Shown one piece after another: positions 49,904 to 54,356 of a stretch of 64,000 nucleotides of DNA. The stretch lies in contig NZ_LASZ01000016.1 in the NCBI RefSeq assembly GCF_001014645.1, forward strand, positions 1 to 64,000, in the 5' to 3' direction. The translations under genes were made by a program, and so were the position numbers. The DNA comes from Luteimonas sp. FCS-9. Lineage in GTDB: Bacteria; Pseudomonadota; Gammaproteobacteria; Xanthomonadales; Xanthomonadaceae. Every line of letters begins with the position of its first letter. Position 1 is the stretch's first letter. Under the pieces are notes generated by a model that was not told the DNA's origin, ran no database searches, and was given only the letters and a program-made list of their open reading frames with translations.

Positions 49904-51103
49904 TCAGCCGGGCAGCGCGTCGGCGGGCACGCGGACCGCGCCCTCCATCAGCACACGCGCCGAGCGCGACATGATCGCCCGGGCGACGGTCCAGCGGCCG
50001 TCGTCCTGGACCGCCTCGGCGCCGACCCGCAGCGTGCCCGACGGATGCCCGAACCGCACCGACGTGCGCGCCCCGCCGCCGGCCGCGTCGCTGACCAGCG
50101 TGCCGGGAATCGCGGCAGCGGTGGCGATGGCAACGGCGGCCGTGCCCATCATCGCGTGGTGCAGCTTGCCCATGGACAGCGCGCGCACCAGCAGGTCGAC
50201 GTCGGACGCGGCCACGGCCTTGCCGCTCGACACCACGTGGTCGCGCGGCGGCGCGACGAAGGCGACCTTCGGCGTGTGCTGGCGCTTGGATGCCTCGGCG
50301 AGATCGCCGATCAGCCCCATGCGCACCGCGCCGTGCGCGCGGATCGTCTCGAACATCGCCAGCGCCTGCGCATCGCCGTTGATCGCGTCCTGCAGCTCGG
50401 CGCCGGTGTAGCCGAGCGCGGCCGCGTCGACGAAGATCGTCGGGATGCCGGCGTCGATCATCGTCGCGCGCAGCGTCCCGATACCCGGCACCTCGAGATC
50501 GTCGACAAGATGGCCGGTCGGGAACATCGCACCGCCGCCGTCGCCTTCACCCTCGTCGGCCGGATCGACGAACTCCAGCACGATCTCCGCCGCCGGGAAC
50601 GTGACCCCGTCGAGTTCGAAATCCCCGATCTCCTGCACCTGCCCGGCTTTGATCGGCACGTGGACGATGATCGTCTTGCCGATGTTCGCCTGCCATACGC
50701 GCACCGCGACCGTCCCGTCGCCGGGGATGCGCGCGGGATCGATGAAGCCGTTGGCGATCGCGAACGGCCCGACCGCGGTGCTGAGGTTGCCGCAGTTGCC
50801 GCTCCAGTCGACGAACGCGCTGTCGATGGCCACCTGGCCGTAGAGATAGTCGACGTCGTGATCGGGCACCGACGCGGGCGCGACGATCACGCACTTGCTG
50901 GTGCTCGAGGTCGCGCCGCCCATGCCGTCGGTGTGCTTGGCGTAGGGATCGGGCGACCCGATCACGCGCAGCAACAGCGCATCGCGCGCGGGCCCGGGCA
51001 CCTGCGCGGCGGCCGGCAGGTCCGCCAGGCGGAAGAACACGCCCTTCGACGTGCCGCCGCGCATGTAGGTGGCGGGAATGCGGAGTTGCGGGGCGTAGGT
51101 CAT
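49904..51103 (-). CDS. prpF: 2-methylaconitate cis-trans isomerase
   Basis: Accessory enzyme of the AcnD branch of the methylcitrate cycle: it isomerises the trans-2-methylaconitate made by AcnD so that it can be hydrated to 2-methylisocitrate. DAP-epimerase-like fold, 399 residues, with the start motif PATYMRGGTSKGVFF, GGATSSTSK and the SGNCGNLS stretch holding the active-site Cys. I use the ATG at 51103; a GTG nine bases earlier is also open. It is the last gene of the prp cluster, cut off from acnD by a DUF559 unit. Confidence 0.95.
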   Translation of the reverse strand: MTYAPQLRIPATYMRGGTSKGVFFRLADLPAAAQVPGPARDALLLRVIGSPDPYAKHTDGMGGATSSTSKCVIVAPASVPDHDVDYLYGQVAIDSAFVDWSGNCGNLSTAVGPFAIANGFIDPARIPGDGTVAVRVWQANIGKTIIVHVPIKAGQVQEIGDFELDGVTFPAAEIVLEFVDPADEGEGDGGGAMFPTGHLVDDLEVPGIGTLRATMIDAGIPTIFVDAAALGYTGAELQDAINGDAQALAMFETIRAHGAVRMGLIGDLAEASKRQHTPKVAFVAPPRDHVVSSGKAVAASDVDLLVRALSMGKLHHAMMGTAAVAIATAAAIPGTLVSDAAGGGARTSVRFGHPSGTLRVGAEAVQDDGRWTVARAIMSRSARVLMEGAVRVPADALPG

Positions 51104-51121
51104 GGTGTTCACTCGCTCTGT

Positions 51122-51213
51122 TTTTGCTTGCCTCTCCCGCTCGCGGGAAAGGAGTCGGATTGCGCTTGTTTTGCCTCTCTTCCTGCGGGGAAAAGATCGG
51201 ACTCTGCTTGTCT
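51122..51213. repeat. Degenerate CTCTCCC-type repeats
   Basis: Two imperfect units, GCCTCTCCCGCTCGCGGGAAAGG... and GCCTCTCTTCCTGCGGGGAAAAG..., each followed by a TCGGA-type stretch and GCTTGT. They resemble the left arm of the adjacent DUF559 unit and may be remnants of it. No gene. Confidence 0.5.
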
Positions 51214-51634
51214 CCCCTCTCCCCTTGTGGGACTACGTGCCCGCCGGGGTAGAGGGGTCGGGGGAGAGGGGTGCTTCCCGCAACGCATTCCAGATCGCTT
51301 CGAGCACCGATTCGGTGTGCTGCAGGATGTCGTGATTCCAGAAGCGCAGCACCTGGAAGCCCTGCGCCTTCAACCATGCGTCACGAACTGCGTCCCTGGA
51401 CGATTCGGCATGCTGGCCGCCATCTGCCTCGACGATCAAGCGCGCACCGAAGTGCACGAAGTCGGCGATATAGGGACCGATCGGCTGCTGACGGCGGAAC
51501 TTCTGTCCATCGAAGCGGTGGGCACGAAGGTGACACCAGAGCAGGCGCTCGGCCTCGGTCATGTTTCGACGCAGCGTTTTGGCGAATGCGCGTTGATCCA
51601 TCGGCGGGCACGTAGTCCCGCAAGGGGAGAGGGG
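51214..51634 (-). mobile_element. 421-bp unit: DUF559 gene framed by 33-bp inverted repeats
   Basis: Left arm 51214-51246 and right arm 51602-51634 are inverted copies with 32 of 33 bases identical. The right arm ends one base before the DUF559 start codon and the left arm contains its stop codon, so the unit is just arms plus gene. Each arm has an internal hairpin (GCGGG...CCCGC). It sits 6 bp from the acnD stop, inside the prp operon, in the same orientation. No transposase is inside; calling it mobile is inference from the repeat structure and the interruption. Confidence 0.55.
51233..51601 (-). CDS. DUF559 endonuclease-fold protein
   Basis: Protein of 122 residues with the DUF559/Vsr-like PD-(D/E)XK nuclease fold. 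Start MTEAERLLWCHLR, then Asp47 in YIADFVH and Glu59-Ala-Asp-Gly-Gly-Gln-His64, the conserved acid/His cluster; VLRFWNHDI is the usual late strand. The C-terminal LSPDPSTPAGT is encoded partly by the left repeat arm. No ribosome site is visible before the ATG, because the repeat arm abuts it. Such genes are scattered in proteobacteria; the biological role is unknown, perhaps mobility or DNA repair. Confidence 0.85.
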   Translation of the reverse strand: MDQRAFAKTLRRNMTEAERLLWCHLRAHRFDGQKFRRQQPIGPYIADFVHFGARLIVEADGGQHAESSRDAVRDAWLKAQGFQVLRFWNHDILQHTESVLEAIWNALREAPLSPDPSTPAGT

Positions 51635-51640
51635 CTTTGG

Positions 51641-54265
51641 TCATGCGGCCCTGCTGGACTCGAGGAAATCCTGCGCGAAGCGCTGCAGCACGCCGCCGGC
51701 CTCGTAGATCGACACTTCCTCGGCGGTGTCGAGCCGGCAGGTCACCGGCACCGCCAGCTGCGTGCCGTCGGTGCGGTGGATCGCCAGCGTCAGCACCGCG
51801 CGCGGCGCGCGCGCGCCGATCACGTCGAAGGTCTCGGTGCCGTCGATCCCGAGGGTCAGGCGCGTGGTGCCGGGCTGGAACTCCAGCGGCAGCACGCCCA
51901 TGCCGATCAGGTTGGTGCGGTGGATGCGCTCGAAGCCTTCGGCGACGATCGCCTCCACGCCGGCCAGCCGCACGCCCTTGGCCGCCCAGTCGCGCGAGCT
52001 GCCCTGGCCGTAGTCGGCACCGGCGACGATGATCAGCGGCTGGCGGCGGTCCATGTAGGTCTCGATCGCCTCCCACATGCGCACGACCCGGCCGTCGGGC
52101 TCGATGCGCGCCAGCGACCCCTGCCGCACGGCGCCGTCGACGACCGCCATCTCGTTGACGAGCTTGGGATTGGCGAAGGTCGCGCGTTGCGCGGTCAGAT
52201 GATCGCCGCGGTGCGTGGCGTAGGAATTGAAGTCCTCCTCGGGCACGCCCATCTTCGCCAGGTACTCGCCGGCCGCGCTGCTGGCCAGGATCGCATTCGA
52301 CGGCGAGAGGTGGTCGGTGGTGATGTTGTCGCCCAGCACCGCCAGCGGCCGCATGCCGGTCAGCGTGCGTTCGCCGGCCAGCGCGCCCTCCCAGTACGGC
52401 GGGCGACGGATGTAGGTGCTCGCCGGCCGCCAGTCGTACAGCGGCGCGACGCGCTCGCCGGTATCGACGTGCAGCTTGAACATCGGCCCGTAGACGCTGC
52501 GGAACTGTTCGGGCTTGACGCTGGCCTTCACGACCGCGTCGATCTCCTCGTCGCTGGGCCACAGGTCCTTGAGCGTGACCGGACGGCCGTCGGCGTCGAC
52601 CCCGAGCGCGTCCTTCTCGATGTCGAAGCGCACGGTGCCGGCGATCGCGTAGGCGATCACCAGCGGCGGCGAGGCCAGGAACGCCTGCTTCGCGTAGGGA
52701 TGGATGCGGCCGTCGAAGTTGCGGTTGCCGCTGAGCACGGCGGTCGCGTACAGGTCGCGCTCGACGATCTCCTGCTGGATCGCCGGATCGAGCGCGCCGC
52801 TCATGCCGTTGCAGGTCGTGCAGGCGAACGCGACGATGCCGAAGCCCAGCCGCTCGAGCTCGGGCAGCAGGCCGCTGTCCTGCAGGTACAGTTCGACCGC
52901 CTTGGAGCCTGGCGCCAACGACGTCTTGACCCAGGGCTTGCGCACCAGGCCGCGCGCATTCGCGTTGCGCGCCAGCAGGCCGGCGGCGATGACGTTGCGC
53001 GGATTGGAGGTGTTCGTGCAGCTGGTGATCGCGGCGATGATCACCGCGCCGTCGGGCAGCAGCCCCTGGGCCTCCTGCGTGCGGGCCAGCGTCAGGTCGC
53101 CGGCGATGCCGCGCTCGACCAGCGCCGAGGTCGGCAGCCGCCGGTGCGGGTTCGACGGGCCGGCCATGTTGCGCTCCACGCTTGACAGGTCGAAATGCAG
53201 CGTGCGTTCGTACTGCGCGCCGGCCAGCGCGTCGGCCCACAGGCCCGCGGCCCGGGCGTAGGTCTCCACCAGCGCGACCTGCGCGTCCTCGCGCCCGGTC
53301 AGGCGCAGATAGTCGAGCGTGTTGTCGTCGATGAAGAACATCGCCGCGGTCGCGCCGTACTCGGGCGCCATGTTGGAGATCGTCGCGCGGTCGCCGACCG
53401 ACAGCGCGGCCGCGCCCGGCCCGCGGAACTCGAGGTACGCGCCGACGACCTTGGCCTGGCGCAGGAACTCGGTCAGCGCCAGCACGACGTCGGTCGCGGT
53501 GATGCCGGGCCCGGGACGGCCGGCGAGCTCGACGCCGACGATCTCGGGCGTGCGCATCCACGACGCGCGGCCGAGCATCACGTTCTCCGCCTCCAGCCCG
53601 CCGACGCCGACCGCGATCACGCCCAGCGCATCGACGTGCGGGGTGTGGCTGTCGGTGCCGACGCAGGTGTCGGGGAACGCGACGCCCCGCCCGTCCGTGC
53701 CTCGCTGCACGTAGACCACCGGCGACATCTTCTCCAGGTTGATCTGGTGCATGATCCCGTTGCCCGGCGGGATCACCTCGACGTTGCGGAACGCCTGCTT
53801 CGTCCAGTCGATGAAGTCGAAGCGGTCGGCGTTGCGGCGGTCCTCGATCGCGCGGTTCTTCTCGAACGCCTGCGGGTCGTGGCCGCCGCACTCCACCGCC
53901 AGCGAGTGGTCGACGATCAGCTGCACCGGCACGACCGGATTGACCTTGGCCGGATCCCCGCCCTGCTCGGCGATCGCGTCGCGCAGGCCTGCCAGGTCCA
54001 CCAGCGCGGTCTGGCCGAGGATGTCGTGGCAGACCACGCGCGCCGGATACCACGGGAAGTCGATGTCGCGGCGCAGCTCGATCAGCTGGCGCAGCGCGTC
54101 GTCGAGCAGCGCCGGCTCGCAGCGCCGCACGAGGTTCTCGGCGTGCACGCGCGCGGTGTAGGACATGCGATCAAACGCGCCGGGCTGCAGGGCGTCGACA
54201 GCGGCGCGCGCGTCGAACCAGTCGAGGTCGGTACCGGGAAGGGGCTTGCGATGCTGGCTGTTCAT
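51641..54265 (-). CDS. acnD: Fe/S-dependent 2-methylisocitrate dehydratase
   Basis: Aconitase-type dehydratase of the methylcitrate cycle, acting on 2-methylcitrate with PrpF. 874 residues, close to the usual 860-870. The 4Fe-4S cysteines are in ITSCTNTSNP and CTTCNG, GTDSHTPH holds active-site residues and the swivel domain GADYGQGSSRDWA is intact. The ATG at 54265 (MNSQHRKPLPG) fits the family; the frame upstream is repeat sequence. Between prpC and prpF as usual, but separated from prpF by the DUF559 unit. Confidence 0.95.
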   Translation of the reverse strand: MNSQHRKPLPGTDLDWFDARAAVDALQPGAFDRMSYTARVHAENLVRRCEPALLDDALRQLIELRRDIDFPWYPARVVCHDILGQTALVDLAGLRDAIAEQGGDPAKVNPVVPVQLIVDHSLAVECGGHDPQAFEKNRAIEDRRNADRFDFIDWTKQAFRNVEVIPPGNGIMHQINLEKMSPVVYVQRGTDGRGVAFPDTCVGTDSHTPHVDALGVIAVGVGGLEAENVMLGRASWMRTPEIVGVELAGRPGPGITATDVVLALTEFLRQAKVVGAYLEFRGPGAAALSVGDRATISNMAPEYGATAAMFFIDDNTLDYLRLTGREDAQVALVETYARAAGLWADALAGAQYERTLHFDLSSVERNMAGPSNPHRRLPTSALVERGIAGDLTLARTQEAQGLLPDGAVIIAAITSCTNTSNPRNVIAAGLLARNANARGLVRKPWVKTSLAPGSKAVELYLQDSGLLPELERLGFGIVAFACTTCNGMSGALDPAIQQEIVERDLYATAVLSGNRNFDGRIHPYAKQAFLASPPLVIAYAIAGTVRFDIEKDALGVDADGRPVTLKDLWPSDEEIDAVVKASVKPEQFRSVYGPMFKLHVDTGERVAPLYDWRPASTYIRRPPYWEGALAGERTLTGMRPLAVLGDNITTDHLSPSNAILASSAAGEYLAKMGVPEEDFNSYATHRGDHLTAQRATFANPKLVNEMAVVDGAVRQGSLARIEPDGRVVRMWEAIETYMDRRQPLIIVAGADYGQGSSRDWAAKGVRLAGVEAIVAEGFERIHRTNLIGMGVLPLEFQPGTTRLTLGIDGTETFDVIGARAPRAVLTLAIHRTDGTQLAVPVTCRLDTAEEVSIYEAGGVLQRFAQDFLESSRAA

Positions 54266-54279
54266 GGCGGGCAGTGAGA

Positions 54280-54356
54280 CCGGGATTGGGGAATGGGGAT
54301 TCGGGCGTCGGGAAAGCGGGGACCGGGCGAACCGAATCCCCAATCCCGATTCCCGG
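54280..54356. repeat. Long imperfect inverted repeat between prpC and acnD
   Basis: Arms 54280-54304 and 54332-54356 pair at 22 of 25 positions around a 27-base loop. Sequence is of the GGGATTGGGGAATGGGGATTCGG type. In the prp mRNA it would form a stable stem just before acnD and could shape the relative expression of prpC and acnD. Confidence 0.7.

Follow-up and report, generated by a model that had tools for sequence, protein, structure and literature searches.

The DUF559 gene that stands between acnD and prpF in Luteimonas sp. FCS-9 is enclosed by two inverted hairpin repeats, and this unit of repeat, gene and repeat is real and one of very many. Across the genomes analysed, the number of dispersed repeats goes with the presence of DUF559, a link that is specific to the type of repeat and holds mostly within genera. 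We consider it probable that DUF559 is the dedicated partner of dispersed hairpin repeats, as RAYT is for REPs, and that the unit described here is one of a family of small mobile cassettes. DUF559 most likely spreads its cognate hairpin repeats, by catalytic steps that we propose in the Discussion.

Results

The unit in the prp operon

The unit and its neighbours in the window, the whole stretch of 64,000 nucleotides that was analysed, are:

51233..51601, minus strand: DUF559 gene, predicted PD-(D/E)XK nuclease of Vsr/homing type (PF04480, E 2.1e-41; AF2 model; nearest structure 3hrl; dN/dS)
51602..51634, minus strand: upstream repeat (5' of the gene), truncated to left arm and loop, abutting the ATG (full-length in loci L093, L095 and L101)
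51214..51271, minus strand: downstream repeat, a complete loop variant with tail, inverted relative to the upstream repeat and including the 33-nt arm 51214-51246
51128-51153 and 51171-51196, no strand assigned: two degenerate hairpin relatives between the unit and prpF (direct repeat D1, 73%; hairpin 51131-51152)
51641..54343, minus strand: acnD, preceding the unit in the operon (aconitase domains; its place in the prp operon, with which the name acnD agrees)
49904..51112, minus strand: prpF, following the unit in the operon (PF04303, E 2.2e-167)

The initial annotation had described a DUF559 gene between 33-bp inverted arms with one mismatch, inside the prp operon, and both the coordinates and the PF04480 match bear this out: the arms (51214-51246 and 51602-51634, 33 nt each) are inverted, 97% complementary and 355 nt apart, with an inverted-flank score of 61, and they enclose an ORF of 122 aa. 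The ATG (51599-51601) lies immediately next to the upstream arm, the stop codon (51233-51235) falls within the downstream arm, and the final residues of the protein are also encoded by the repeat. The domain matches of acnD and prpF are intact, the unit being intergenic and neither an intron nor an intein. Degenerate relatives of the arm, which had been noticed beside the unit, were found there as listed above. A hairpin scan of the window, which missed the unit's own arms with their broken stems, recovered 51131-51152 as the sole C/T-armed repeat-like hairpin. Folded as single-stranded DNA, the upstream repeat by itself forms no long stem, and the downstream repeat forms a hairpin that is only moderately better than those of shuffled sequences (z -1.77). 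Rfam returned two matches, both far under their gathering scores, PADLOC two weak ones (best E 0.0029) and NCBIfam a DUF559 model match under its cut-off.

The protein matches PF04480 with 140.7 bits against a cut-off of 20.6; Pfam further gave a weak MTES_1575 match under its cut-off and no Y1 (HUH) transposase family. As modelled (AF2, pLDDT 84.5), it has a Vsr/homing-type PD-(D/E)XK fold with predicted nuclease activity. The closest solved structure is itself a DUF559 protein, NGO0050 (3hrl; Foldseek E 2.5e-9, 54% identity; profile E 4.7e-39), and weaker Foldseek matches were to Toxoplasma mitoribosomal proteins, I-Bth0305I (3r3p, E 2.2e-3), PvuRts1I, Vsr (1vsr, E 0.09) and an R2 retrotransposon protein. 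R11, E18, W22, R26, Q38, D47, E58, D60, G61, D70 and R73 are invariant in 31 sequences; we take E18, D47, E58 and D60 to be the conserved acidic core, presumably catalytic as in the family at large.

History of the acnD-prpF site

We surveyed 30 Luteimonas loci around prpF, out of 46 genomes with a match. DUF559 with its repeats stands between acnD and prpF in seven of them (L092, L093, L094, L095, L101, L102 and L106; the DUF559 match is split in L094) and a solo repeat without the gene in two (L097 of genome G224, L098 of G207), and no DUF559 was seen in the remaining 21. Outside the 30 loci, DUF559 adjoins prpF, by coordinates, in G233. The comparison of acnD-prpF spacers in sister strains, which the initial annotation had proposed as a way to an empty site, does yield 21 loci in which no DUF559 was seen and two with a solo repeat; the unit itself is old at the site.

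The 33-bp loop variant occurs just twice in the window genome, as these two arms, which is why we regard the unit here as resident and partly degenerate. The same variant is found in the upstream repeat of L095 (G234) and in the solo repeat of L098, and with three mismatches close to the unit of G228. In L093, L095 and L101 the upstream repeat is longer, with a complete hairpin and tail ahead of the ATG, so that the exact abutment at the ATG is a truncated derivative, produced by a local deletion, and not the usual fit; the exact fit claimed earlier is real in this genome, but derived. The window unit is best read as an old, vertically kept copy, partly degenerate and with one arm truncated. 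In the simplest history, the old variant would have been copied over to the other arm and the upstream arm then truncated.

Two other readings of the site were rejected. A recent cassette insertion at acnD-prpF conflicts with a unit common to seven of 30 Luteimonas loci and with the solo repeats in L097 and L098, and the 33-bp arm does not qualify as the ancestral repeat, its loop variant being confined in the window genome to two arms of which the upstream one is truncated relative to the sister species.

DUF559 at this site is under purifying selection, judging from a median dN/dS of 0.14 in six Luteimonas orthologues (prpF, 0.13). In three of these orthologues (L093, L095 and L102) the DUF559 frame has no stop and continues in frame into prpF via a repeat-encoded linker. 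A different open stretch of several hundred bases occupies the place of DUF559 before prpF in L096, L099, L100 and L103. When Luteimonas genomes were searched for insertion junctions, three relatives (L355, L362 and L366) proved to have a hairpin of a different type that the window genome lacks at the matching place, on the 50-64 kb side of the window; no clean junction was found.

Inverted repeats around DUF559 genes

Flanks were scored by comparing the 200 bp that precede the domain with the reversed 200 bp that follow it and taking the best local match, with a threshold of at least 40, and displaced window pairs of equal spacing in the DUF559 loci served as control. The loci were not a random sample: they comprised 30 loci of the window's family (L009 excluded) with 60 more taken mostly by E-value, three of them from the window's genus, and, from the phylum, 28 loci plus 40 chosen for diversity. 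We left out genes flanked on either side by under 200 bp of sequence, those whose domain match was short, exact duplicates, L123, L203 and one of the 27 new loci of f38, a family outside the window's class.

Inverted flanks reached the threshold in 72 of 99 gene instances from the family and genus (a set that includes one gene twice, as L001 and L092, and split or partial matches in L094 and L042), against 21 of 99 in direct orientation and 6 of 1848 displaced pairs. Of the loci picked for their diversity, 29 of 39 reached it in inverted and 10 in direct orientation (displaced 0 of 429), and in f38 22 of 26 did so (displaced 0 of 299). The 27 usable best-scoring loci of the phylum gave 10 inverted, 12 direct and 2 of 299 displaced, and some branches of DUF559 are therefore probably not repeat partners. 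With duplicates removed, and over loci up to L248, 117 of 180 distinct Pseudomonadota genes reach 40 and 127 reach 36. A search of the flanks of related DUF559 genes, as suggested in the initial annotation, thus found inverted repeats of the same general kind; and of the two adverse outcomes that it had named, an armless gene at this site in all sister genomes and a lack of arms at other DUF559 genes, neither was what we found.

If hairpin repeats were simply common at operon borders in GC-rich genomes, DUF559 genes might stand among them by chance. The repeats are indeed GC-rich hairpins at the borders of operon genes, and the displaced windows often lie in coding DNA, but no more than 8 of 2875 displaced pairs reach 40 when all are pooled, and in a control nuclease family from the window's family of bacteria, UPF0102, 0 of 30 genes reach even 36. 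Together with the co-occurrence within genera and the unit duplications reported below, these counts leave the absence of any link already disfavoured and, in our judgement, very improbable.

By eye, most of the 30 oriented family loci follow a common plan, in which a pyrimidine-rich left arm, a purine-rich right arm and a purine-rich tail that faces the gene are followed by the gene and then by the reverse complement of the same elements; the arms in the window are local variants of this general pyrimidine-armed hairpin with its tail. Repeat sequences vary among loci, yet the two flanks of one gene match, and the alignment of repeats is poor at the left arm. In other families an additional small hairpin may sit between the main hairpin and the tail. 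In the minimum-energy fold of the canonical repeat as single-stranded DNA, the left arm pairs with the tail around the nearer right arm, and the one pyrimidine arm therefore has two possible purine partners.

A stop codon inside the repeat is common and not a rule: among the 117 flanked genes, the stop lies inside the downstream repeat or at most 12 nt from its end in 44, before the repeat in 25 and beyond it in 35, while in 13 the frame is still open over 300 nt after the domain. At L007, a run of CAACAG-type repeats downstream of the domain extends the DUF559 frame with a Ser-Asn repeat.

Repeat numbers follow the presence of DUF559

The relation between gene and dispersed repeats was analysed in 198 genomes of the window's family, 106 with DUF559 and 92 without, using three repeat types (A, B and C). 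At least five dispersed copies of the three types together were present in 88 of the 106 and in 7 of the 92. For the tail of type A (at most two mismatches), the median was 11 copies with DUF559 and 0 without, at least five copies being present in 71 of 106 against 4 of 92 genomes. Within 21 mixed genera, genomes with DUF559 had more type A copies in 18, fewer in one and as many in two, and none of 2000 genus-stratified permutations reached the observed value; types B and C went in the same direction. The contrast used was the presence or absence of DUF559, since a control with reversed patterns, near zero for types B and C, is unusable for type A, whose pattern nearly equals its own reverse.

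Each type was also more numerous in genomes with a DUF559 gene flanked by that type than in genomes whose DUF559 is flanked otherwise (p 1.6e-6 for A, 1.4e-4 for B and 1.1e-8 for C), in a test on 64 genomes with characterised loci, often not every locus of a genome, and with two copies subtracted. The window genome has 22 copies of type C and none of types A and B; its second DUF559 gene (C7:16641) has, by eye, a type-C-like hairpin downstream and an inverted score of just 32. A related pattern was present in f38 in 67 of the 172 genomes that have DUF559, against 1 of the 27 that lack it (p 8e-5), seven of these 27 having been identified by subtraction. There were exceptions in both directions in the window's family: the three types together fall short of five copies in 18 genomes that have DUF559, and G036, G038, G045, G081, G113, G173 and G175 have at least five without DUF559. 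Repeat doublets less than 250 bp apart were in the same direction in 33 cases, with tails facing in 13 and tails outward in 3; these were selected among the first places listed per genome, and the pattern is suggestive only.

One pair of genomes of the same genus was compared over 400 kb each, by a pattern-free search. In G029, which has DUF559, the most frequent 14-mers come from the DUF559-type repeat, and the search found 27 hairpins with an arm made up purely of pyrimidines or purines. In G098, which lacks DUF559, it found 0 hairpins of this kind, and the most frequent 14-mers correspond to published REPs of Stenotrophomonas RAYTs (table in PMC2817692). Repeated 14-mers are more numerous overall in G098 (195, against 44 in G029), and a few REP-like ones persist in G029. 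This one pair suggests that DUF559-type hairpins and RAYT-type REPs are two alternative repeat systems.

These data bear on the possibility that the hairpin repeats are moved in trans, by a RAYT or another transposase, and that DUF559 was merely caught between two of them. The unit encodes no joining enzyme, the repeats far outnumber the DUF559 genes, and G029 keeps REP-like 14-mers beside its DUF559, all of which a passenger gene would accommodate. In relatives free of DUF559 the repeats are, however, rare or absent, and the abundant repeats of G098 are the published RAYT-type REPs, the DUF559-type hairpin not having been found in its 400 kb. Moreover, the repeat type is specific to the flanks of DUF559, and a passenger is not expected to predict it. 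We consider this explanation unlikely, if the most serious of the alternatives to a dedicated partner.

Comparison of protein and repeat similarity

Repeats are unlike between DUF559 paralogues of the same genome (17 pairs, mean similarity 0.35) and alike between genes that occupy one site in different genomes (269 pairs, 0.67). With shared sites taken out, the similarity of the repeats tracks that of the proteins weakly (Mantel r 0.17, with 1 of 1000 permutations as high). In 33 of 34 comparisons the more similar repeat is that of the closest protein relative in another genome, a figure that drops to 18 of 34 with same-site relatives excluded; much of the agreement is therefore inheritance of the whole locus. 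Around the three DUF559 genes of G121 (L003, L045 and L067), the repeat type is different at each.

Copying of whole units

Duplications were searched for in 20 stretches from four genomes that had been picked for holding several DUF559 genes, for which reason the finds give no rate. In G693, two copies of the whole unit (L376 and L378) are 95.8% identical over 528 bp in unrelated flanks, the identity beginning 26 bp before the first hairpin and stopping 26 bp beyond the second. The two copies in G434 lie 5.7 kb from each other and share 86% identity over 589 bp, again in unrelated flanks, and the identity stops at the hairpin edges. Terminal inverted repeats accordingly bound the duplicated unit, at the hairpin edge in G434 and 26 bp outside it in G693. 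In G100 (L393, C73:38262-41201), the unit of repeats and DUF559 is tandemly duplicated, with 97-100% identity. Neither the unit pairs of G693 and G434 nor one site with and without a hairpin gave a clear target site duplication. Each of the two G693 copies has GTCG at either end, a tetranucleotide that could belong to the unit or be a preferred target. As read from these alignments, the duplications show that the unit gets copied as a whole, with its nuclease a candidate for the enzyme responsible. The initial annotation had proposed a minimal mobile cassette or a family of repeats in which each member brings its own nuclease: the repeat family is supported, with repeat numbers that follow DUF559 and units duplicated in two genomes, but a recent cassette at acnD-prpF is not, seven of 30 loci sharing the unit.

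The copying of whole units in G693 and G434 would also be expected of a homing-like selfish gene, whose nuclease cuts unit-free sites and is copied in by repair, the scattered repeats being mainly cut targets or remnants of units. Such a gene would fit the homing endonuclease I-Bth0305I among the fold neighbours and the solo repeats that lost units leave behind (L097 and L098). However, a genome of the family can hold up to 174 type A copies beside DUF559 genes numbering 1-6 per genome, more than remnants would easily give, and the unit is intergenic, without intron or intein, and recurs at varied places. We rate a homing-like origin of the pattern as less likely again than a passenger gene.

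In 85 of 90 loci, both homology-supported neighbours are co-directional with DUF559, and the gene is probably expressed from host promoters; the persistence of units in sense inside operons would then probably reflect a reliance on host transcription. Operon location and purifying selection could also be those of a host Vsr-like nuclease of very-short-patch repair, with the hairpins acting as transcription or translation signals. Support for this comes from Caulobacter, where VsrA, a DUF559-domain protein, is needed for the SOS response when a cytosine methylase is missing; on the genetic evidence of PMC12907096, the DNA-damage response there is due to a DUF559 protein, for which the authors suggest a part in very-short-patch repair. 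But signals alone fail to explain repeats that are inverted, matched within a locus, type-specific and co-occurring with the gene genome-wide, and the duplication of units would go unexplained. A repair role for the unit appears improbable to us, more so than homing.

Discussion

The preferred reading, that DUF559 is the partner of the repeats, leaves the manner of copying to be explained, and we infer that the nuclease itself drives it. The nuclease would recognise the repeat when it is extruded or single-stranded, a state in which one pyrimidine arm has two competing purine arms, and would then nick or cut at the repeat or at the target. Host repair or replication would copy the repeat, or the unit, into the break; we assign this step to the host because no known DNA-joining enzyme is encoded in the unit. 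To our knowledge, a PD-(D/E)XK nuclease alone cannot join DNA. We tentatively put forward, as a real possibility held with more reserve than the partnership itself, that these units form a class of nuclease-only elements of about 0.5 kb that may spread themselves and a large non-autonomous hairpin population by cutting and host repair, convergent with REP/RAYT through a different chemistry.

DUF559 is widespread and its function unsettled, and the mobilising enzyme of many untagged palindromic repeats is stated as open in PMC3733652. The link reported here brings these questions together and opens each of them to testing, by giving every repeat type a candidate enzyme and every such enzyme a candidate substrate. 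If the explanation is right, REP-like populations have arisen alongside enzymes of two or more unrelated classes, and a mobile element can be sustained by a nuclease that lacks joining activity. A nuclease-only element, if true, would account both for what many DUF559 proteins do and for how untagged palindromic repeats came about in many Pseudomonadota.

In the open-access literature, covered through titles and the beginnings of abstracts and excluding preprints, we found no report that ties DUF559 to repeats. NGO0050 (3hrl) belongs to the same DUF559 family, and the title of its entry gives no function. Caulobacter VsrA shares the DUF559 domain and differs in its proposed role in mismatch repair (PMC12907096). 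Vsr and I-Bth0305I have a similar fold, at 13-18% identity and with some mitoribosomal proteins ranking above or among them; the DUF559 unit has no intron or intein and is flanked by hairpins. CGTC and other untagged palindromic repeats resemble the present ones by description, as short dispersed palindromes for which no dedicated transposase is known according to PMC3733652.

The closest likeness is to REP/RAYT systems, with their REPtrons, REPINs and BIMEs. In both, a gene lies between two inverted palindromic repeats (here in 117 of 180 genes, and in 22 of 26 in f38), the number of dispersed repeats goes with the cognate gene, a genome may hold several types with a gene for each, and doublets occur; these are the criteria of the RAYT paper (PMC2817692). 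The differences are that the enzyme here is a predicted PD-(D/E)XK nuclease of the DUF559 family, whereas RAYT is a Y1/HUH tyrosine transposase; that no GT(A/G)G head was seen, by eye, in the DUF559 repeats inspected; that the single pyrimidine arm of a DUF559 repeat has a choice of two purine partners; and that the DUF559 gene lies in operons in sense direction. With a different enzyme and head motif, the unit is in our view REPtron-like in its genomic behaviour and not a RAYT system.
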